DNA of 64,000 nt from assembly GCA_012744475.1 (NCBI GenBank), contig JAAYBV010000051.1, forward strand, positions 62,001-126,000, in the 5' to 3' direction. Below the pieces are notes generated by a model. The model was not told the DNA's origin. It saw nothing but the letters and a program-made list of their open reading frames with translations, and ran no database searches. Positions 15,973 to 31,135 of this stretch are shown here, one piece after another (the stretch's first letter is position 1; every line of letters begins with the position of its first letter). Made by a program: the position numbers and the translations under genes. The stretch is from Phycisphaerae bacterium. Lineage in GTDB: Bacteria; Planctomycetota; Phycisphaerae; Sedimentisphaerales; Anaerobacaceae.

Positions 15973-16596
15973 ATGGCAAGACAGAAGATCGCATTGTTTG
16001 GTGGCACATTCGATCCGATTCATCTCGGTCACACACAGGTGGCCGAGGCGGCGGCCGAGCAGATCGAAGCGGAGGAAGTTGTCTTCATTCCTGCGAAGTG
16101 TTCGCCGTTGAAAGGGTTTTTTCCTCGCGCGTCCGACGACGATCGACTGCGCATGATCGAGCTGGCCATTCAGGGCGGCAAGGGGTTCTCGGCAAGCGAC
16201 TGCGAGCTGCGCCGAGCGGCCCCGAGCTACACCATCGACACCGTCAAGCGATTTCAGCAGGAGTACGGCGAGGAAACGTCGATCTACTGGCTGCTCGGCG
16301 CCGACAGCGTGAACGACCTAGTCTTGTGGCATCGCATCGACGAGCTGATCGACGCATGCCATCTGGCGGTCATGGTGCGAGGGGGCTATGAGGCGCCGTC
16401 GTTTGGAAAGCATCTGGCGGCGCTGGGGCCGGATCGCGTCGAAAAGCTCCGCCGCGATGTGATCCGGACGCCGTCCATTCCCATCAGCAGCACAGAGATC
16501 CGCGAGCGTCTGGCCGCCGGCAGAGACGTCCGCCGCATGCTTTGCCCCGAGGTTTGGCGCTACATCTGCGAACGCGGGCTCTACAAACGCGACTGA
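15973..16596 (+). CDS. nadD: nicotinate-nucleotide adenylyltransferase
   Basis: IALFGGTFDPIHLGHTQVAE, DTVKRFQQEYGEETSIYWLLGADSVNDLVLWHRIDELI, ISSTEIRERLAAGRDVRRMLCPEVWRYI. Confidence 0.93.
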   Translation: MARQKIALFGGTFDPIHLGHTQVAEAAAEQIEAEEVVFIPAKCSPLKGFFPRASDDDRLRMIELAIQGGKGFSASDCELRRAAPSYTIDTVKRFQQEYGEETSIYWLLGADSVNDLVLWHRIDELIDACHLAVMVRGGYEAPSFGKHLAALGPDRVEKLRRDVIRTPSIPISSTEIRERLAAGRDVRRMLCPEVWRYICERGLYKRD

Positions 16597-17246
16597 CGCA
16601 CCTGCGCGCCGAGCCAGTCGTACCAGTTCTGCATCCCCTCGCCGCTCTTGGCGCAGACGGGGAAGATTTCGATGCTCTTGTTGAGCCGCCGCGCATCGGC
16701 CTTCACCCGGTCGAGGTCAAACTCGACAAGCGCGCCGCGCAGCAGATCGATCTTGTTGACGAGAAGCGCCCTGCTCTTGGCGAAGATGCCGGGATATTTT
16801 ACGGGTTTGTCGTCGCCTTCGGCCACGGAGAGCACGACAATTTTCCCAGTTTCACCCAACTCGAACGCCGCCGGGCAAACCAGATTGCCGACATTCTCAA
16901 TGACGATCGCATCGAGAGCGTCGAGAGGCAGCCTGCCAAGCGCCTCATACACCTGCCGGGCCGAAAGGTGACAGGCGCCTTCCGTGTTGATCTGAATCGC
17001 CGGCGCCTGCGTCGCGCGGATGCGCTGGGCATCGATGTCGGTCTGAAGGTCGCCCTCGATCACGCCGATCCGGAGCTGTCCCTTCAGATCGCTGATCGTG
17101 CGTACGAGGATCGTCGTCTTGCCCGAGCCTGGAGAAGAGATCATGTTCAGGCACAACTGCTTGCGCTGCGCCAGGAGCTCAATGTTCTTCATCGCGTATT
17201 GCTCGTTGGCGCCGAGGATGCGTGAGCCGACATTGACCTTTTCCAT
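16581..17246 (-). CDS. hypB: hydrogenase nickel incorporation GTPase HypB
   Basis: MISSPGSGKTTIL P-loop, GVIEGDLQTDIDAQRI, CHLSA, VIENVGNLVCPAAF, LLVNKIDLL. Confidence 0.93.
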   Translation of the reverse strand: MEKVNVGSRILGANEQYAMKNIELLAQRKQLCLNMISSPGSGKTTILVRTISDLKGQLRIGVIEGDLQTDIDAQRIRATQAPAIQINTEGACHLSARQVYEALGRLPLDALDAIVIENVGNLVCPAAFELGETGKIVVLSVAEGDDKPVKYPGIFAKSRALLVNKIDLLRGALVEFDLDRVKADARRLNKSIEIFPVCAKSGEGMQNWYDWLGAQVRQSRL

Positions 17247-17249
17247 CGC

Positions 17250-17594
17250 TTACTCCTTCTCGAATTCGATCTCATCCAACACCAGAGGGGCGTCGGGAAG
17301 CAATTCAAAATCGGTGCCGGCGCATCGCGGACACCGCGCGTCCGACAGCGTTACGATATATGTTCCACCGCACGTTCTGCACTTGGCCTGCAATGGTTTG
17401 TGCTCGATCTCCAGGGTCATCCCTTCGCAGACGGTGCCCTCAGCGATGGCCTCGAATGCGAAGCGAACAACCTCGTCGTTGACCGCATTGAGCGTGCCGC
17501 AGCTCATCCTGGCGCGAATCGGTCTGCCGCCCTGCTTCTCCGCTTCGCAGAGGATCGCCTCGATCAATCCCTGGGCCACTGCCGCCTCGTGCAT
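17250..17594 (-). CDS. hypA: hydrogenase maturation nickel metallochaperone HypA
   Basis: MHEAAVAQGLIEAI N-terminus, two zinc Cys pairs (CRTCGG and CPRCAG). Confidence 0.9.
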   Translation of the reverse strand: MHEAAVAQGLIEAILCEAEKQGGRPIRARMSCGTLNAVNDEVVRFAFEAIAEGTVCEGMTLEIEHKPLQAKCRTCGGTYIVTLSDARCPRCAGTDFELLPDAPLVLDEIEFEKE

Positions 17595-18613
17595 CAGCAG
17601 ATCCTCGGCAATTCGCGTCCGTAGGGCATCTGCACGATCCGCCGGCCGCCGATCTTCGTGCGCAGCTCGACGAGCGGCACACCCTGCGAGGCGACTACCT
17701 CGCCGATCAGAGCAGCGTCGCGACCCAACGGATGGCTTCGACACAGCTCCAGGCACGCATCCGCCGTCTCGGGCGATACGACCGCGACGAACTTGCCCTC
17801 GTTGGCGATGTTCAGGACGTCAAAGCCAAGCATGTCGGCGGCCGCCTGCACCGACGGTCTGACGGGAATGTTCGCATCGCGAATCTCGATGGCCAGGCCG
17901 GCGCCTTCGACGATCTCGTTCAGCACCGCCGCCAGCCCACCGCGCGTCGCATCCCGCATGAACTTGACGCCGGTCCTCTCGAACAACATACATGTCAGGT
18001 CCGCCAGCGCGGCGCAGTCGCTGACGAGCCGGGACTCGAACTCAATCCCCTCTCTCTGCGAGATGATCGTCATGCCGTGATCGCCGATCGTACCGTTGAG
18101 CAGGACCTTGTCGCCGACCTTGATGCGATCCAAGCCGGGATTGACGCCGGGCAATCGGACGCCCACGCCGGCGGTGTTGATGAACAGCCCATCGGCCGAA
18201 CCGCGCTCGACGGTCTTGGTGTCGCCGGTGACGACGGAAACGTTGTTCTCTCGAGCCGTCCGGCCGATGCTCTGGAGGATTCTCTCCAAGAGCGGCTTCT
18301 CGAAACCCTCTTCGATGATCAGCGACAGCGTCAGTGCCACCGGCCTCGACCCGGCCACCGCCAGATCATTGATCGTGCCGCAGACCGCCAGCTTGCCGAT
18401 GTCTCCACCGTGGAAGAACAGCGGCTTGACCACATAGCTGTCGGTCGTCAGGCAGATGGAGGTCGATCCCAACTCCAGGCGAGCGGAATCACCGAGCGGC
18501 GAGAGCGCCTCGTTCCTAAGGTGCGGCAGAACAAGCTCGCGAATGAGTTGACTGGTCAGTTGCCCCCCGCCGCCGTGGGCGAGCAGGATGCGCTCCGGTT
18601 CATGCTGTGCCAT
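17594..18613 (-). CDS. hypE: hydrogenase expression/formation protein HypE
   Basis: LLAHGGGGQLTSQLI, TTDSYVVKPLFFHGGDIGKLAVCGTINDLAVAGSRP, C-terminal YGRELPRIC. Confidence 0.95.
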   Translation of the reverse strand: MAQHEPERILLAHGGGGQLTSQLIRELVLPHLRNEALSPLGDSARLELGSTSICLTTDSYVVKPLFFHGGDIGKLAVCGTINDLAVAGSRPVALTLSLIIEEGFEKPLLERILQSIGRTARENNVSVVTGDTKTVERGSADGLFINTAGVGVRLPGVNPGLDRIKVGDKVLLNGTIGDHGMTIISQREGIEFESRLVSDCAALADLTCMLFERTGVKFMRDATRGGLAAVLNEIVEGAGLAIEIRDANIPVRPSVQAAADMLGFDVLNIANEGKFVAVVSPETADACLELCRSHPLGRDAALIGEVVASQGVPLVELRTKIGGRRIVQMPYGRELPRIC

Positions 18614-18621
18614 CGCTCACC

Positions 18622-19692
18622 CTAACTCCTTCGTCCGTATTTGTACCACGCGGCGCAGGTGCCTTCGGAACTGACCATGCACGGTCCGATCGGCTTGGCC
18701 GGCGTGCAGCGCGTGGCGAACAGCGCGCACTGCGGCGGCTCGATGAGTCCGCAGAGGACTTCGCCGCATCGACATCCGCTCAGGTCCTCGCCGGGCTCAT
18801 CACTCAGGCCGAATCGTGCGAAGGCATCGAACCGCCTGTATTGCTCTTTCAGCACGAGCGTGCTCTTCTCTATTTTCCCAAGACCGCGCCAGTAACCGTC
18901 GGCCGCCTCGAAACACTCTGCGATGATTCGCTGCGCGGCGACGTTGCCCTGCTCGGTGACGACTGCGTTGTAGATCGACTTGAGTTCCGCCTTCTCATTG
19001 GAGAGCTGCCGGCAGATCTCCGCAAGGGCTTCGATAATTTGCAGCGGCTCGAAACCGGCAACGACGCAAGGCCGGCCGAAATCGCTGACGATCTCCGCGA
19101 ACGCGCTGGCTCCGATGATGACGCTGACGTGCCCCGGACAAAGAAACGCGTCGACGCGGTCGTTCATCCCGCCCAGCAGCGCACGCATCGCCGGCAAGAT
19201 CAGCTTGTGACCGCTGAGGATGCAGAAGTTCTTGATCCCCTCCCGGGCCGCTTCCTTGACGACCACCGCAGAAGCGGGCGCAGTCGTCTCGAACCCGACC
19301 GCGATGAACACCACGGTCTTGTCGGCGTTGTCGCGGGCCAGTTGCAGCGCGTCTTCGCTGCTGAGCACGACCCGGACGTCGGCCTTCGCGGCGCAGGTCT
19401 CCAGCGATCCGTCCTTGCCCGGCACGCGGATCATGTCGCCATAGGTGGCGATGATGCAGTCGTCGCGTTGGGCCAACTCAAGGACCGCGTCGATGTAGCC
19501 CTGGTCGGTCACGCAGACAGGGCACCCCGGCCCCGACAGGAGCTTGAGCCCCTCCGGCAGCGTGGACCGGATGCCGCTGCGGAAGATCGCGACCGTGTGG
19601 GTCCCGCAGACTTCCATGACGGTGATCGGCCGGCCCAGCGTCCGACACGCGTGGTCGATCTGCTGTTGCGCTTTGGCGATCCTGTCGAGCAT
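18622..19692 (-). CDS. hypD: hydrogenase formation protein HypD
   Basis: VMEVCGTHTVAIFRSGIRSTLPEGLKLLSGPGCPVCVT, VAVGFETTAPASAV, CPGHVSVIIG. Confidence 0.95.
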   Translation of the reverse strand: MLDRIAKAQQQIDHACRTLGRPITVMEVCGTHTVAIFRSGIRSTLPEGLKLLSGPGCPVCVTDQGYIDAVLELAQRDDCIIATYGDMIRVPGKDGSLETCAAKADVRVVLSSEDALQLARDNADKTVVFIAVGFETTAPASAVVVKEAAREGIKNFCILSGHKLILPAMRALLGGMNDRVDAFLCPGHVSVIIGASAFAEIVSDFGRPCVVAGFEPLQIIEALAEICRQLSNEKAELKSIYNAVVTEQGNVAAQRIIAECFEAADGYWRGLGKIEKSTLVLKEQYRRFDAFARFGLSDEPGEDLSGCRCGEVLCGLIEPPQCALFATRCTPAKPIGPCMVSSEGTCAAWYKYGRRS

Positions 19693-19698
19693 ATGGCC

Positions 19699-19941
19699 TT
19701 ATCCCGAGATCCGGTTCTGCGTCTTCTCGAAGTCCTCGATCTCGGCGAACAGCTCCCACGTCTTCCTGGCTTCTTCCTCATCGACCCGCGCGATGGCAAA
19801 GCCCGCGTGAACCAGCACGACGTCGCCGAGCTTCGCGCCGGGCAGGAGCGTTGTCTTGGCCTTGAAGCGATTGCCCATCGCATCGACCATCGCACGATCG
19901 TTTTCTAATTCCACAATTCTCGCCGGTATGGCTAAGCACAT
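19699..19941 (-). CDS. hypC: HypC/HybG/HupF family hydrogenase chaperone
   Basis: MCLAIPARIVELE start and LGDVVLVHAGFAIARVDEEEA. Confidence 0.93.
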   Translation of the reverse strand: MCLAIPARIVELENDRAMVDAMGNRFKAKTTLLPGAKLGDVVLVHAGFAIARVDEEEARKTWELFAEIEDFEKTQNRISG

Positions 19942-19957
19942 ACTGATCTGTACCTTC

Positions 19958-22267
19958 TCACGAACTCTCATCCAGGATGCGGGCGGCGATAGCGGCCTGG
20001 CCGAGGGCGATGCCGCCGTCGTTGGCGGGGACATCCCGGTTGCATAATACCGCAAAACCCGCCTGCTTGAAACGCGCAATCAGACGGTTGGCCAGATAGC
20101 GGTTGCAGAAGACGCCGCCACTGAACGCGACGACTTCCAGGTCCGTCTTCCGTCGGGCGGCCTGAGCCACCGCCAGGAGGGCTTCGGCGACGGTGTTGTG
20201 GAACTTCGCAGAGACGCGGCCTGCATCGCTGCCTTGCTGCGTCTCTTCCGCGATCTGCCGGATCATCGCACGCGGATCGATCTTCACCGGCTCGCCTTCG
20301 CGCTCGATCAGGTCGAACGGATAGTCGGCATCGACGCGCGGATCGACAATCGATTCGAGCGCCATCGGCAATTGTGCATCGAAGTGATTGTATCCGCCAA
20401 GCGAGAGAATCGCCGCAACGGCGTCGAAGACCCGCCCCAGGCTCGACGTGTTGACCGTGTTGACGCGTTTGTCGATCTGTTCAAGAAGTGTATTCAGCTT
20501 GGTTCCGTCGGGCTCGATGCGCTCCAGCAGCCAGGCGAAATCGCTGGCGCGAAGATCGTCACCATGCGCCTGTCGCAACAGACTCAGCAGCGGCCGAATC
20601 GCCTCTTTGCTCGCGCGATCTGCGCCGGCCAGCGGATAGTAGTCGAGATGTCCGAACCGCTTGAACTGCGTCAGCGAAGCGATCAGGCACTCGCAACCCC
20701 AGATGGCGCCGTCGGGGCCGTAGCCGGTTCCGTCGCACACGATGCCGATGACCGGGCCGGCGTGGCCGTGCTCGCCGAGCACGGACGCGATGTGGGCCCA
20801 GTGGTGCTGGACGGGAATGACTCTTACACCGGAAAGGGATCGAGCGTAGCGAGTGGAGAGATATCCAGGGTGCAGATCGCAGGCAACCACCTCGGGTTCC
20901 ACCTCGAACAGCCTGCGCAGATGCTGGATGGAGCCGACGTAATGCCGATAGACCTCGGCGTCCTCCAGGTCGCCGATGTGCTCGCTGAGGATGAGCTGGT
21001 TCTGCTTGACCAGACAGAACGTGTTCTTCAGATCGGCGCCGGCGGCGAGGATATCGGGTCCCGCGCTTCGCTCGATCAGGATCGGTGCCGGCACGTATCC
21101 CCGCGCGCGGCGCAGCGGGACCGGCTCGCCGTCGATCAGGTGGATGATCGAGTCGTCCACCTGCCGATGGATCTGGCGGTCGTGCATGATGAACGCATCG
21201 GCCACTTCGCCCAGCCGTTGCAGCGCCACGTTGTTCTTGCAGATCAGCGGCTCGTCCGAGAGGTTGGCACTCGTCATCACGAGCACGTCGAGCCCTTCCG
21301 CGAAAAGCAGCACGTGCAGCGGCGCGTAGCAGAGCATGAAGCCAAACGTATTGACCCCGTCAGCCACCGACGGCGCAATCCGCATGCCCTGCTTCTTGGG
21401 CAACAACACGATCGGTGCCAGCGGGCTTGTGAGAATCTGCCTGGCCAAATCGTCAACAACAGCGTACTTGCGAATCGCGTCGACCGAACCGGCCATCATC
21501 GCAAACGGCTTATGATCGCGACGCTTGCGCTGCCTGAGCCTGCGCACGGCCTCGTCGTTCAGCGCATCGACCGCCAGGTGGAAGCCGCCGACGCCCTTGA
21601 TCGCCAGAATCCTGCCTTCGCGCAGCAGGCGAGCGGCTTCGGAAAGCACCAGATCGGTCCCGGTTTGCAGGACCGCGCCGGCCGGGTCGACCAGTTGGAT
21701 GCTCGGTCCGCACGCCGGACACGCCACCGGCTGGGCGTGGAATCGCCTGTCGGCCACGTCCGCATACTGACTCGCACAGCGCTGGCACATCGGGAAAACC
21801 GCCATCGTCGTGTTGGGCCGGTCGTACGGGATGACCCTGACGATGGAGTATCGAGGCCCGCAGTTGGTGCAATTGATGAAGGGGTAGCGATAACGGAAGT
21901 CGTTGGGGTCGCCCAGCTCGGCCAAGCAGTCCCGGCATGTAGCGATATCGACGGTCACCTGGGACAGGGCGGTCCCGGCCGGATCGCTTCGGCCGATAGT
22001 GAAAGCCTCCTGCCCCTCGACCGGCTCGATATCTATTCTTATACACGACCGAATCCGGGCCAAGGGCAGCTTGTCCGCGCCGGCCTGCAAACGGTGTACA
22101 AACTCGTCGATCCGGGCCTTGGACCCTTGAAGCTCGACCGTGACCCCAGTGGTGTCGTTGTAGACCGTGCCCGCCAGACCCAGCTCGCAGGCCAGCCTGT
22201 ACACGGCCGGCCGGAAGCCCACTCCCTGAACCTGGCCGGCTATTTCTATGCGCTCTCGTTTGACCAA
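19958..22267 (-). CDS. hypF: carbamoyltransferase HypF
   Basis: Acylphosphatase block GQVQGVGFRPAVYRLA, zinc-finger CRDCLAEL...CTNCGPRYSI, CACGPS-type repeats, YrdC and Kae1-like regions (VQHHWAHIASVLGEHG, AFSGGVFCNRYLANRL). Start ambiguous: ORF opens at 22327 (GTG), TTG at 22267 has an SD-like ggaaag. Confidence 0.93.
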   Translation of the reverse strand: MVKRERIEIAGQVQGVGFRPAVYRLACELGLAGTVYNDTTGVTVELQGSKARIDEFVHRLQAGADKLPLARIRSCIRIDIEPVEGQEAFTIGRSDPAGTALSQVTVDIATCRDCLAELGDPNDFRYRYPFINCTNCGPRYSIVRVIPYDRPNTTMAVFPMCQRCASQYADVADRRFHAQPVACPACGPSIQLVDPAGAVLQTGTDLVLSEAARLLREGRILAIKGVGGFHLAVDALNDEAVRRLRQRKRRDHKPFAMMAGSVDAIRKYAVVDDLARQILTSPLAPIVLLPKKQGMRIAPSVADGVNTFGFMLCYAPLHVLLFAEGLDVLVMTSANLSDEPLICKNNVALQRLGEVADAFIMHDRQIHRQVDDSIIHLIDGEPVPLRRARGYVPAPILIERSAGPDILAAGADLKNTFCLVKQNQLILSEHIGDLEDAEVYRHYVGSIQHLRRLFEVEPEVVACDLHPGYLSTRYARSLSGVRVIPVQHHWAHIASVLGEHGHAGPVIGIVCDGTGYGPDGAIWGCECLIASLTQFKRFGHLDYYPLAGADRASKEAIRPLLSLLRQAHGDDLRASDFAWLLERIEPDGTKLNTLLEQIDKRVNTVNTSSLGRVFDAVAAILSLGGYNHFDAQLPMALESIVDPRVDADYPFDLIEREGEPVKIDPRAMIRQIAEETQQGSDAGRVSAKFHNTVAEALLAVAQAARRKTDLEVVAFSGGVFCNRYLANRLIARFKQAGFAVLCNRDVPANDGGIALGQAAIAARILDESS

Positions 22268-22406
22268 AACGAGCTTTCCTTTCCCAATCTTCCGAGGGCC
22301 ACCGGGCGAAGGTCCGAAAATCCCCACGGTCGCGGAGGACTATGGCCCCCCAGAGTCTATTGGCCCATCGCCCCTCTGCAAGAGCAAAATACCCGTGAAA
22401 AATTGC

Positions 22407-25930: not shown

Positions 25931-26412
25931 CGGTGATTGGGTCCATCTCCCTCGACCCATGTAGAGGCGTACATGTGGCGTAAATGTGGATGCCTATTTC
26001 TTCGCACGCGCTCTTTTTTTTGAGGCCGCGGCGTACCGTCCCAATGACGCTGCACCGGTCAAACCACAAACGCTGAGGCAAACTGGTCAAGGCTCTCGTT
26101 CGCCGCAAGGTGGCATTCTGCGCAGCTCGCGACAGCAAGGAAATCCGCGCGGGAAGGGCCCGGTGTCTCCGTGTTCCTCTGCCGCCGGCACAATCGAATT
26201 CTTCTCGAAAATGCACTCAAGAAAACTCCTGCGTCTGGCCGATGCGAAAGAATGAAAAAGTTCAGAACGGTGGCTCGAAGCTGAAGACCAGCAAGGTCCT
26301 CTTAGCCAAAACCGGCATCGTCAATCTACTCTTGCATGCCTGTTGCATCCAACGCCAGACCATGCACGGGGCGGTTAGGAACAAAAGGAGAGAGCCACGA
26401 ATAACTCAGTTG

Positions 26413-26499
26413 GGCCCCTGTGAGAGCAGCAGGCGGGTATTTCGTGTAACTGGACACAAGCACTGGCAAATACCTTCGTGTCCTGCTGCGACAGGGGCC
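26413..26499. ncRNA. putative long hairpin RNA or terminator/attenuator
   Basis: ggcccctgt/acaggggcc (9 bp), gcagcagg/cctgctgc (8 bp), ggtattt/aaatacc (7 bp), co-axially ordered, 48 nt downstream of the GT4 stop codon. Confidence 0.5.
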
Positions 26500-26546
26500 T
26501 TCTTCTTGCGCCCTTCGGACCCCTCGGATCATCTGACCACAGACTT

Positions 26547-27665
26547 CTACAGCGTCCGCTTCCGCAGTATCCGATCGTAGAATGCTGTCGTCTGCGCTGC
26601 GATCCTGGTGTGCGAAAGCTCCCGCACGGCCCAGGTTCGCGCGGCGTCGCCCAGCCGACGCCGTGTGTCCGGGTGTTCGATGAGATCGCCAAGGATCGCG
26701 GCCAGCACGCGGGGGTCAGCCGTCGGGGTGACAATGCCCGTTTCGCCGTCGCGAAGATGGATCGACTCGCGCGGCTTGGTGAAGCCGGCAGAGACAACGC
26801 ACAGACCGCAACTCATCGCCTCGTACATGACCGATCCGCCCGACAGACTCACGAGCACATCGAGGCAGTTCAGCACATCAGGCATATCCTCTCTCCGCCC
26901 GATGAGGGCCAGTTGCCCGTTCAAGCCGCCGGCCTGTGCCAGACGACTCACCTCGGCGCCGTAGGCGCGGTTGCGGACCTCCCCGATGAGCACGAAGCGC
27001 ACCTGCCGGCCCCAGTGGCGTTGCACTTCGAGTGCGGCCCGGATGAACTCCAGTTGCCGCTTGGCCGGCTCGATGCGACCGACCAGACCGATCTGGAGCA
27101 CGGGACCATCTCCGGTGTGGCCGGACACATCCGCCAGGCGGTTCTTCGAGGGCCTGAACGAATCGACGTCCACGGCATCCTCAATCTGAACGATCCGGTC
27201 GGCACGGATGTACGCACTCCGCAGGACGCGCGTGATCTTCGGCGAAATAGAGATCAGGCCGGTTGCGGCATACAGCCGGTGTTTCCATATCCCCCGCCAC
27301 GTCACCGGCCCTCGCACATGCACAATCGAAGGGATCCTCAACCGCCAACGCAGCCAGTTCACGTAATTGCCCAGCCACATGTCTGATGCGTGGATGCAGG
27401 CAGGTTCCATCGATCGGGCGAGCGCAACGAGCCTCTCGGCGTCCTGATACCGGTGAATGGCGTGACGCGGTTTCCGCCAGGGGCGCAGCGACAGCACTTC
27501 AGCGCGAATGCCGGCAGACCGCAACTGCCCGACGATCTGACCTTCCGTCGTGCAGACCACGGTCGGCTCATAAGACGCGTCCAGGCCTTTCAGAAGCAGC
27601 AGGAGCTGGCGATGACTGCCGTCGATATTGCCACCTTTGGATACGTATAGAATTCGACGCAACAT
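26547..27665 (-). CDS. glycosyltransferase family 4 (GT-B)
   Basis: MLRRILYVSKGGNIDGSHRQLL; IGLVGRIEPAKRQLEFIRAA; LVSLSGGSVMYEAMSCGLCVV. Confidence 0.85.
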   Translation of the reverse strand: MLRRILYVSKGGNIDGSHRQLLLLLKGLDASYEPTVVCTTEGQIVGQLRSAGIRAEVLSLRPWRKPRHAIHRYQDAERLVALARSMEPACIHASDMWLGNYVNWLRWRLRIPSIVHVRGPVTWRGIWKHRLYAATGLISISPKITRVLRSAYIRADRIVQIEDAVDVDSFRPSKNRLADVSGHTGDGPVLQIGLVGRIEPAKRQLEFIRAALEVQRHWGRQVRFVLIGEVRNRAYGAEVSRLAQAGGLNGQLALIGRREDMPDVLNCLDVLVSLSGGSVMYEAMSCGLCVVSAGFTKPRESIHLRDGETGIVTPTADPRVLAAILGDLIEHPDTRRRLGDAARTWAVRELSHTRIAAQTTAFYDRILRKRTL

Positions 27666-27840
27666 GACGCTTGTCCTTGCTTGCCCGTCGTGGGAAGTCA
27701 TACCTGTGCATTATAGGCTGTAAAGGGAGGCACTTCTACGTTCCTTCCTGGAGATTCTCACATGGCCAACGGCTGGGCCCGACGTTACAATGCCGGATAC
27801 GTAAACGACCTTTCGGCAGCGATTTCGGATCGTCAATGCG

Positions 27841-28788
27841 ATGCGCACTGGCAGAAAGCAAGGCCATATCGGTGAGATTCCGTTGCGCAACAGACTCATC
27901 CTGGGGGCAATGGGGGGCATGCTGCGTCCCTCGATCCGTCTGACGTATCGTCACCTGGGCGCGGCGATGACCTGCGTTGGCGTTATCGACGCCCGGGCGG
28001 TAGCCGCCGCCGATAATGACGAGTTGATCAACATCCTCGGCCGACGCGAGGTCACGACCGAAGAGGAGCGGCCGGTCAGCGTCCAGCTCATCGGCGGCGA
28101 TATCAAAGAGCTTGCCGTTGCCGCCGGTCGGATTCAGCGATTCGCCAGCGTGATTGATCTGAACTGCAGCAGCCCGATCCAGCGTCTGATCGACCAGGGC
28201 TACGGAGCGTCGAGCCTGCTGCGCGACCCGGCTTTCATCCGGGAGATGGTTCGCGCGGTTGTGGAGACGACCCGCATTCCTGTCACGGTGAAGATCCGGA
28301 TCGGTATCGAGGGTCCGGATGTAGACGTGGTACGAATCGCACAGAACTGCCAGGAGGCCGGCGCCGCCGCCATAACCGTACATGCCCGTTTTGTCCGGCA
28401 GATGTACTGTGGACCGCCGCACTGGGACGCGATCAAGCTGGTCAAAGAGAACGTGGACCTGCCGGTCATTGGCAACGGCGCCGTACATTCGGCCTTCGAC
28501 GCGCAAGCCATGCTTGAACGGACGGGCTGCGACTTCGTCATGATCGGCACGGCGGCGTTCATCAACCCGCTGATCTTCCTTCAGACGAACGAGCTTCTGG
28601 AGACGGGCCATTGCCGGACCATTAGCAGTGCCCAGGCGTTGGTCCGGTTCTTCCGGGAGTACTCGATCGTCGCGCGGAAGCTGGAGTCCCGAGGGCCCGT
28701 GAGCTTCCTGCGTCGTTCCTGCAAGAACTTCCTCAAGGTCCGGTCATTCATGCAGAGGATTCAGCGCGGCGAGGTCACACTGGAGTGA
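27841..28788 (+). CDS. tRNA-dihydrouridine synthase (Dus)-like flavoprotein with altered active-site Cys
   Basis: LRNRLILGAMGGM, VSVQLIGGDIKELAVAA, SVIDLNCSSPIQRLIDQGYGASSLL, PVTVKIRIG, AITVHARFVRQMYCGPPHWDAI, VIGNGAVHS, MIGTAAFINPLIF. Confidence 0.8.
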   Translation: MRTGRKQGHIGEIPLRNRLILGAMGGMLRPSIRLTYRHLGAAMTCVGVIDARAVAAADNDELINILGRREVTTEEERPVSVQLIGGDIKELAVAAGRIQRFASVIDLNCSSPIQRLIDQGYGASSLLRDPAFIREMVRAVVETTRIPVTVKIRIGIEGPDVDVVRIAQNCQEAGAAAITVHARFVRQMYCGPPHWDAIKLVKENVDLPVIGNGAVHSAFDAQAMLERTGCDFVMIGTAAFINPLIFLQTNELLETGHCRTISSAQALVRFFREYSIVARKLESRGPVSFLRRSCKNFLKVRSFMQRIQRGEVTLE

Positions 28789-28795
28789 ACCATAC

Positions 28796-29851
28796 ATGAA
28801 CGACTGTAAAGGGGAATGGATCGTCCGGCTGCTGGAGACCCTGCGCGACATGCCGTACCGAGTCCGGTTTCTTCTCGGCAAGCGTCCCCGGGTGCGCATG
28901 CTGTACCTTGAAGTGACACATCGCTGCAACGCCCGCTGCATAAGCTGCTACACAGGCGCTGGAAGAGAGAAAGACGACGTGCTCACGCCCGATGAGAAAA
29001 AATCGGTCGTCCGACAGGCCAAACAGATGGGCGCCCGTACGGTGTCCCTGAGCGGTAGCGGTGAGCCGCTGTTGTATCCCCATATCTTTGAGCTGGTCGA
29101 TTTCATCCGTCTGCAAGACATGCAGGTGGTCATGTTCACCAACGGCACCACGATTGACCGAGCCTGTGCGGACCGCCTGATTGCCAGGAATGTGATCACC
29201 TACTTCAAGTTGTTCAGTCTCGATCCGGACACGTTCGACCGCATGATGGGCAAGACAAACGCCTATGAGTGGGTCTCGCACACGTACTCCTGCGGCGACG
29301 CCAGCAAAACGGTTTGCCTTCCCAGCGGCCTGAAGCACCTGCTCGACGCCCAGGGAGCGGCCGGCGTCGCGGGCCTGGTCAGGGCCGAGTCACTGATCAC
29401 CAAGCTGAACCGCCGCACGCTGCCGGACGTGGCACAGCTATGCAAAGACCTGAATCTGGTCCTGCATCTGGAAACGCCTGTCTGTGCGGGACGCGCGATC
29501 GAGAACTACGCGGACATCGCTCTTGACTCTGCGGAGTACGAGAGCCTCTACCACGAACTGGTCGCCATCCTTGGAGAGGAGTATTTCCGCGAACTTCGAG
29601 CTCATCCGTGCCCCGTGGAACGCAATCCGGCGGTCTGGACCAACGGGGATATCGCGCTTTGCAGCAGCCGGCCGGCCCACGTCGGCAATGTGAGGCAGGC
29701 ATCCCTTGAGAGCTTGTTTCACAAGGCCCAGATGCGAAAACGCCAGGAAGATCGCCGTCTGCCCCGATCCGATGGCGAGGGTCGCCACTTCCGCACATGC
29801 CCGGCGAGGCAGTACTACCGGATGCGACACGGAATTCGCGGCGATGATTGA
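28796..29851 (+). CDS. radical SAM protein with SPASM/twitch-like C-terminus
   Basis: LEVTHRCNARCISCYTG (CX3CX2C), SLSGSGEPLLYPHIFELVDFI, VVMFTNGTTI; C-terminal CPVERNPAVWTNGDIALCSS...GNVRQASLESLF...FRTCP. Confidence 0.87.
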   Translation: MNDCKGEWIVRLLETLRDMPYRVRFLLGKRPRVRMLYLEVTHRCNARCISCYTGAGREKDDVLTPDEKKSVVRQAKQMGARTVSLSGSGEPLLYPHIFELVDFIRLQDMQVVMFTNGTTIDRACADRLIARNVITYFKLFSLDPDTFDRMMGKTNAYEWVSHTYSCGDASKTVCLPSGLKHLLDAQGAAGVAGLVRAESLITKLNRRTLPDVAQLCKDLNLVLHLETPVCAGRAIENYADIALDSAEYESLYHELVAILGEEYFRELRAHPCPVERNPAVWTNGDIALCSSRPAHVGNVRQASLESLFHKAQMRKRQEDRRLPRSDGEGRHFRTCPARQYYRMRHGIRGDD

Positions 29852-30980
29852 ATGCTGGGGAGCGGCCGTGCCCAAGCCACGACGCAGGCTCTATCGAAAA
29901 GCACAACGGCTGGGTCAGATTGTCCTTCTCTGGCGCCGGGTCAACCGACTGTGGCGTTGGCCGTCCATTGTGGCCTTCCGGCGGGCCTTGCGCGTCTGCC
30001 GGAGAGACCGATTCGAGCCCGCCGAGGCATTCCGCCTGGGCCTGTTCCACCCGGCCTCGGCCCACGATAGGCCGTCGTGCTATGTGAGTCGCAAACGATT
30101 GACGAAGGTCCAGGAGGCCTTGAATCCTGCCGGCTGGGCGCCGCTCCTCAAGAACAAGGACCTTTTCTACCGATACAGCGCTGCTCTGGGCATACCCGTC
30201 CCGCGATTGTACGCGGTCGTTCAGGCCACCGCGCCGGGTTGGTCCTGCGCAGGTGGTGCGATCAGAACACCAAAGGAATGGACGACCTTCTTCGAACGCT
30301 ACCTGCCGGCGGAATTTGCCGTCAAACCCGCCGTAGGGGCCTATGGGAACGGGTTCAATATCTACCGGAGGGTCAGCGGCGGGTACGTGGATGCTCTCGA
30401 AAACCGCATCGAGTCCAGCGTCTTGTACGATGCGCTCGTTTCTTCAGGCCATGACCGATATGTGATCCAGGAGCGGGTTCACAGCCATTCGGACCTCGTG
30501 CGTCTCAGCGGGACGCAGGCGCTGCAAACCGTCCGAATGATCACCCTGGTGGAGCCCGCCGGCGATGTGCGCATTCTGCATGCCCACCTGAAGGTCATCG
30601 AGGCCGAGGAGATCGTCGACACCTTCCTTGACGGTCTGACCGGCAATATTGAGGCGCCCGTTGACCTGGAGTCCGGCTGTTTGGAGTCCGCCAATCGAAT
30701 CCCCGACACAGGCTGTGGCGTTGTCACAATTGACGTCCACCCCAAGACGAGAATTCCGTTCGCGCGATTCTTGCTCCCGTTCTGGCCGCAGGCATGCGAT
30801 CTGGTGCGGCAGACCTCGCCTCACTTTCTGCCCGTGCGGACCATCGGGTGGGACGTCGCCCTGACGCCCACCGGGCCGCTGATCGTCGAGGGGAACGTCT
30901 GGTGGGATCCGCCCAACCAACACGGGAACCTGCACACCGTCCTGCAGACCATCCGTGACCTCTGTCCGTCCGTAACGTGA
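29844..30980 (+). CDS. sugar-transfer-associated ATP-grasp family protein
   Basis: LNPAGWAPLLKNKDLFYRYSAALGIPVP, AEFAVKPAVGAYGNGFNIYR, VIQERVHSHSDL, TVRMITLVE, GWDVALTPTGPLIVEGNVWWDPPNQ; ATG overlaps the upstream stop codon (ATGATTGA). Confidence 0.75.
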   Translation: MIECWGAAVPKPRRRLYRKAQRLGQIVLLWRRVNRLWRWPSIVAFRRALRVCRRDRFEPAEAFRLGLFHPASAHDRPSCYVSRKRLTKVQEALNPAGWAPLLKNKDLFYRYSAALGIPVPRLYAVVQATAPGWSCAGGAIRTPKEWTTFFERYLPAEFAVKPAVGAYGNGFNIYRRVSGGYVDALENRIESSVLYDALVSSGHDRYVIQERVHSHSDLVRLSGTQALQTVRMITLVEPAGDVRILHAHLKVIEAEEIVDTFLDGLTGNIEAPVDLESGCLESANRIPDTGCGVVTIDVHPKTRIPFARFLLPFWPQACDLVRQTSPHFLPVRTIGWDVALTPTGPLIVEGNVWWDPPNQHGNLHTVLQTIRDLCPSVT

Positions 30981-31033
30981 CCGACGCGCCAGCCGAGCGT
31001 CCAACGGCGCGTGGAAAAACACCCGGCCGGCCT

Positions 31034-31062
31034 TTGCAGGCTGCTGCGACAGTTGGTACAAT
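31034..31062 (+). promoter_or_regulatory. predicted promoter TTGCAG-17 bp-TACAAT
   Basis: Motif and spacing, ~75 nt upstream of the Gfo/Idh/MocA gene. Confidence 0.5.
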
Positions 31063-31135
31063 CTCGTTTGGGCCCGGGGCGGTTCCATCTGATTTCCCTA
31101 CGGACGGGAAACGTCAGCTCTAAGGGAGGCATGCC

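Follow-up and report, generated by a model that had tools for sequence, protein, structure and literature searches.

The window analyzed here, a 64,000-nucleotide stretch of planctomycete DNA, contains a 4.4-kb block of four genes encoding a GT4 glycosyltransferase, a Dus-family flavoprotein, a radical SAM enzyme and a PF14397 ATP-grasp ligase. This gene combination is new and narrowly distributed. The block sits in an island with empty sites in related genomes, and we consider it about an even call, if slightly short of one, that it represents an accessory, mobile island that decorates a cell-surface glycan, probably of the lipopolysaccharide (LPS) or exopolysaccharide type.

Organization of the Four-Gene Block

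A previous sequence-only reading of this DNA had proposed four genes with their coordinates, strands and families, all of which were borne out, with the GT4, Dus, Radical_SAM and ATPgrasp_ST calls each matching Pfam. The gene for the GT4 glycosyltransferase (384 aa; 26547–27701, minus strand) is divergent from the other three, as that reading had said, and is separated from them by an intergenic region (27702–27840) which in the congener G005 holds an extra ATP-grasp gene. The plus-strand genes encode the Dus-family flavoprotein without a catalytic Cys (27841–28788), a twitch-type radical SAM enzyme (28796–29851) and a B-type ATP-grasp carboxylate-amine ligase (29844–30980). Their tight coupling was evident again: a gap, measured as 7 nt (28789–28795) and not the 8 nt given before, separates the first two, and the radical SAM stop and ATP-grasp start overlap by ATGATTGA (29844–29851), as described. 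In G005 the first of these gaps is similarly short, and the radical SAM and ATP-grasp genes lie close together without overlapping; the start codon there is probably TTG, and a Shine-Dalgarno-like motif accompanies it.

The four proteins are 73–81% identical to those of G005, and the dN/dS values between the two genomes (NG86) were 0.14–0.21 for all four genes, with the highest value for the GT4 gene, which is evidence of purifying selection. The selection on all four indicated that they are real genes and ruled out chance open reading frames. A simple hydropathy scan revealed no clear membrane segment in any of the four proteins, which fits cytoplasmic enzymes.

The Dus-Like Flavoprotein Lacks the Catalytic Cysteine

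The flavoprotein matched the FMN-binding barrel family PF01207 with 176 bits (cut-off 20.4) and also clearly matched TIGR00737. DusB was the nearest Dus type, with the best genome matches being 33–41% identical. The sequence-only reading had the family of this barrel right but overlooked that its catalytic Cys is missing: the motif NxGCP reads NCSSP in the window protein and NCSGP in that of G005, with Ser or Gly in place of the Cys. In alignments, Cys was present at the catalytic site in all 12 comparison Dus from the phylum, and in the six ordinary Dus of the window genome and its relatives that cover the site (6/6). The motif Cys is indispensable in Escherichia coli DusA and is conserved in all Dus subfamilies (PMC3674756).

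Residues of the FMN site were kept (KxR as K151-I-R153, H181, R183 and N212), the IGRxxxGNPWIF motif was altered to IGTxAFINPLIF, and the C-terminus, which in Dus is a helical tRNA-binding domain, was shorter and weakly alignable. The window genome encodes a separate, ordinary full Dus elsewhere. The omega value of the Dus-like gene was 0.14, compared to 0.13 for the ordinary Dus pair from the same two genomes, and as selection on the two is equal, the Dus-like gene is no dying copy in these two species. Judged on these sequence features, the Dus-like protein is probably not a tRNA enzyme. Dus matches from across the phylum proved to be of the ordinary kind that has the Cys.

The Radical SAM Enzyme

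The radical SAM protein matched PF04055 with 60 bits (cut-off 29.5), and its CxxxCxxC motif (C44, C48 and C51) was invariant in three orthologues. The extra C-terminal Cys residues reported for it were confirmed, as an auxiliary cluster motif, C272-x11-G284-x4-C289, together with C335, was likewise invariant in the three. Auxiliary motifs of the twitch and SPASM types are defined by C-x(9–15)-G-x4-C and further Cys residues. The protein has no fourth Cys in a CxxC, which points to a twitch-like cluster with three Cys and not to a full SPASM; its score against Pfam SPASM (PF13186) was 19.3 bits, below the cut-off of 21.5. By analogy with MoaA, the fourth site of the cluster may be open to substrate.

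The best-scoring models for this protein included NirJ2, the mycofactocin maturase and MoaA, with scores below the family equivalog cut-offs (mycofact_rSAM, 61.6 against 265; PqqE, 39.7 against 381). A profile of the protein and its distant relatives had SkfB and PqqE as top PDB matches. The structure model was poor (pLDDT 57, built from two sequences), and the best PDB fold match of this weak model was to the common radical SAM core (viperin).

Among 397 genomes of the class, orthologues were found only in G005 and in L069 (= G446/G586), a locus from another family of the same order whose protein is 53% identical to that of the window. The enzyme was present in 3 of the 397 genomes, and in 3/3 it adjoined GT4 and ATP-grasp genes. 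In 392 genomes of the phylum, the search detected distant relatives only. A genome-collection scan with the radical SAM protein alone gave zero relatives, and the scan with the ATP-grasp was the sole one to yield any. Matches of 25–29% identity in an Anammox-like family (a label guessed from a gene cluster) were rejected as orthologues and taken as distant relatives; Dus and ATP-grasp genes are absent beside them, and their cluster holds genes that by eye resemble those for ketoacyl synthases, SDRs and methyltransferases. The nearest non-orthologous relatives were at four loci of the planctomycete family f53 (L036, L037, L040 and L041). By eye, the neighbors of the L036 gene looked like genes for ketoacyl synthases, an SDR, a methyltransferase and a desaturase-like protein, a set resembling proposed ladderane lipid clusters (PMC2649909).

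The ATP-Grasp Ligase and the GT4 Glycosyltransferase

The ATP-grasp matched ATPgrasp_ST (PF14397) with 134.6 bits (cut-off 31.4), and across 32 homologues six residues (K105, K161, R231, D337, E349 and N351) were invariant or nearly so. In this fold, such residues are expected to lie at the ATP/Mg site. Its structure model had a pLDDT of 91, and the nearest solved folds, all of low identity, were RimK, Ddl (D-Ala-D-Ala ligase), LysX, DcsG and PylC. These fold neighbors are carboxylate-amine ligases and hint at a ligase activity of that kind, which may involve a sugar substrate. Sequence searches of the PDB returned zero matches, both for the single ATP-grasp protein and for a profile of 32 rows.

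In a phylogenetic tree, the L069 ATP-grasp and the B copies formed one group (support 89/86), and the copies of G004 and G005-A formed another (100/100). L069 is a long branch, and its placement is therefore moderate evidence. On this placement, the Dus-like, radical SAM and ATP-grasp B genes appear to make up a single cassette.

The closest ATP-grasp relative (L066) had phenylacetate-CoA-ligase-like and ACT-domain genes as neighbors, and glycan genes were absent. Close relatives in an Acidobacteria MAG and Arsukibacterium, and related ATP-grasps at L074 and L075, were in Wzx/Wzy/GT4/deacetylase clusters, with genes for an O-antigen polymerase/ligase, a flippase, GT4 and a polysaccharide deacetylase. 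Another close PF14397 relative, of 36% identity, occurs in Legionella parisiensis (L070:9887–11020) with a Polysacc_synt/MurJ-like flippase gene nearby. At two loci (L068:7973–12553 and L071:1631–4470), three or four PF14397 genes are in tandem, and such arrays suggest the stepwise addition of several residues.

The GT4 protein matched Glycos_transf_1 (PF00534) with an E-value of 3.6e-18 and also matched the GT4-like N-terminal domain (PF13692/PF13579). Inspection of its EX7E motif by eye showed that the second Glu (E294) is invariant and that the first position is Leu286 in six aligned homologues; the protein and five homologues share the motif LSGGSxMxEA, with Leu where the first Glu is expected.

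The Block Occupies a Variable Island

The sequence-only reading described a gene block that stood up to analysis, but it missed that this block is an island whose site is vacant in some relatives. The island spans 4.6 kb (26521–31135) between an RNA-like element (26205–26520, plus strand) and a Gfo/Idh gene (31136). In a congener (G002) and in an outgroup genus of the same family (G036), the site is empty, with the flanks ~0.2–0.4 kb apart in collinear surroundings, and neither genome had relatives of the ATP-grasp at E ≤ 1e-5. The same site in the congener G004 holds a GT4 gene and one ATP-grasp only, and in G005 it holds genes for GT4, ATP-grasp A, the Dus-like protein, the radical SAM enzyme and ATP-grasp B. 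The similarity shared by the G005 ATP-grasp pair extends ~85 nt beyond the stop codon. This extended similarity suggests that the cassette was gained or lost by recombination through the 3′ end of the ATP-grasp gene.

The ~300-nt element has a terminator-like hairpin (GGGCCCCTGTG...CACAGGGGCC) that is followed by a T-rich stretch, and it is probably a structured, unannotated RNA. Its identity was 80–82% in G001, G004 and G005, 70% in G002 and 68%, over a partial match, in G036. Rfam gave no match for it with E-values up to 5, and its fold z-score was −1.7. In island-less genomes, the element lies upstream of a Gfo/Idh gene. No precursor peptide was found in the conserved intergenic DNA, the conserved feature there being the RNA-like element rather than a small ORF. 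The island lies amid unrelated genes, with no polysaccharide polymerase or flippase gene adjoining it. Elsewhere in the window (16581–22327, minus strand), genes resembling those of the hydrogenase maturation factors HypB, HypE, HypD and HypF were noted by eye.

Distribution of the Gene Set

Conservation of the gene order past close relatives, which had been proposed as the check on the pathway, was found in part. Among the genomes searched, the full four-gene set occurred in two species of one genus only. In L069, the GT4 gene, a Dus remnant and an intact radical SAM gene are on one strand and the ATP-grasp gene is divergent. The remnant retains the start and end of the Dus gene but lacks its middle part and carries a frameshift, although this may be an assembly fault in that single MAG. 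If it is genuine, the decay of this gene beside intact partners would mean that Dus is dispensable there.

As a pair, GT4 and PF14397 ATP-grasp genes were adjacent in six planctomycete genomes, the ATP-grasp being A-type, B-type or a tandem array. The pair was found in G004/L067 and G005 of the same genus, and in L069 and G042/L060 (= L073) in family f7, and at L068 a GT4 gene is beside four tandem ATP-grasps. The G042 pair occurs with another glycosyltransferase, methyltransferases and a Kdo/WaaP-family kinase. Neighbor genes that had not been scanned were judged by eye. Within open-licence texts, we found no literature on PF14397, ATPgrasp_ST or the four-family combination, and a description elsewhere is possible.

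A Proposed Pathway and Its Alternatives

The pathway we propose draws on the gene content, motifs, selection, island with empty sites, modular swapping and partial conservation in another family that were observed. The cytoplasmic GT4 would transfer a sugar, and the ATP-grasp would spend ATP to activate a carboxylate, of either a glycan or an amino acid, and join it to an amine; both steps are proposed because of family precedents (Cj1438, PMC11800379). The radical SAM enzyme, the Cys-less flavoprotein and ATP-grasp B would act as a cassette, adding a redox or rearrangement step on the attached group or the sugar. The flavoprotein would no longer act on tRNA uracil, because the general acid for that reaction is absent. 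The glycan target and the formation of an amide are inferred, as are what the radical SAM enzyme and flavoprotein act on and which reactions they carry out. A link to surface glycans, one of the options previously suggested for the set, was supported by ATP-grasp relatives in Wzx/Wzy, Kdo-kinase and deacetylase clusters, and the accompanying idea of an undescribed pathway stays conjectural. Counting against a glycan role are the unrelated genes around the window island, the non-glycan neighbors of L066, the decayed Dus gene in L069 and the weak radical SAM model.

The main rival to a glycan-decorating island is that the cassette of flavoprotein, radical SAM enzyme and ATP-grasp B yields a separate small molecule or a modified peptide, such as a mycofactocin- or PQQ-like cofactor or a peptide natural product, which the GT4 glycosylates without any surface glycan. 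We consider this unlikely, although it would account for the top-ranking radical SAM models and the SkfB and PqqE matches, for the co-occurrence of a flavoenzyme, radical SAM enzyme and glycosyltransferase that recalls mycofactocin, and for the closest ATP-grasp relative being outside a glycan locus. However, neither a precursor-peptide ORF nor a gene for an RRE or a peptidase was detected among the genes or next to them, the NCBIfam scores were far under every equivalog cut-off, and the GT4 and ATP-grasp of G004 occur without the cassette. That the genes are instead unrelated cargo at a variable insertion hot spot next to the RNA element, with the three plus-strand genes co-transcribed but sharing no pathway, would suit the empty, two-gene, four-gene and five-gene states of the site within the genus. 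We find it improbable, as genes of these four families also lie together, differently arranged, in a second family of the same taxonomic order, the radical SAM gene never occurs without GT4 and ATP-grasp genes, and all the genes are under purifying selection.

There is very little likelihood, in our assessment, that the Dus-like protein still forms dihydrouridine in tRNA or another RNA. In that case the acid would be the shifted Cys109, which lies two residues N-terminal to the usual position, or some other group, and the operon location would be incidental. Its clear PF01207 and TIGR00737 matches and retained K151, H181, R183 and N212 are what such an enzyme would have, but the catalytic position is Ser or Gly (window and G005, respectively) where the 12 comparison Dus and the ordinary Dus of these genomes have Cys. 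A Cys equivalent to Cys109 also occurs in ordinary Dus beside the true Cys (N-C-G-C-P; L051 and L053), and thus no replacement was gained here. The altered IGRxxxGNPWIF motif, the shortened C-terminal part and the full Dus elsewhere in the genome also argue against an RNA substrate.

Returning to the glycan-decorating island, we speculate, with more reserve than for the island as a whole, that a former Dus lacking its catalytic Cys has been co-opted as a flavin oxidoreductase that tailors a surface glycan or glycopeptide together with the twitch radical SAM enzyme and a dedicated second ATP-grasp, in a modification not yet described. If this speculation is correct, the Dus fold, so far bound to RNA, would have shifted to a new substrate, and glycan decoration would include a radical SAM and flavoprotein step. 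One genus offers states for comparison (GT4 with ATP-grasp A, both ATP-grasps with the cassette, the cassette only, and the empty site), and the species would be expected to have glycans that differ in precisely those steps. The general weight of the proposal is limited by the set being carried by few, mostly uncultured genomes.

Comparison with Known Systems

The mycofactocin and PQQ pathways also combine a twitch/SPASM-type radical SAM enzyme with an oxidoreductase, and that of mycofactocin has a glycosyltransferase. The window differs from them in having no detected precursor peptide or RRE, an ATP-grasp instead, and a radical SAM protein far under the family cut-offs. With the tRNA-dihydrouridine synthase DusB, the window flavoprotein shares the FMN barrel, KxR and other flavin-site residues and 33–41% identity, whereas it has lost the catalytic Cys, has a changed GNPWIF and a shortened C-terminus, and is in an operon with radical SAM and ATP-grasp genes.

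The PF14397 genes in O-antigen or exopolysaccharide clusters (L074, L075 and G042) are of the same ATP-grasp family and have GT4, Wzx, Wzy, deacetylase or Kdo/WaaP kinase genes as neighbors. Those clusters do not have the radical SAM/Dus cassette, and the window island does not have a polymerase or flippase of its own.

In Campylobacter jejuni Cj1438, a GT2 is fused to a TupA-like ATP-grasp domain, Cj1438C, that amidates capsule glucuronic acid, and the next sugar can be added only after this amidation (PMC11800379). The window ATP-grasp, unlike the TupA-like domain, matches only PF14397, its genes are separate with GT4 in place of GT2, and the radical SAM enzyme and flavoprotein are absent from the Cj1438 system. 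The likeness lies in the joint action of a glycosyltransferase and an ATP-grasp ligase on a surface glycan, described for Cj1438 (PMC11800379) and proposed for the window proteins.
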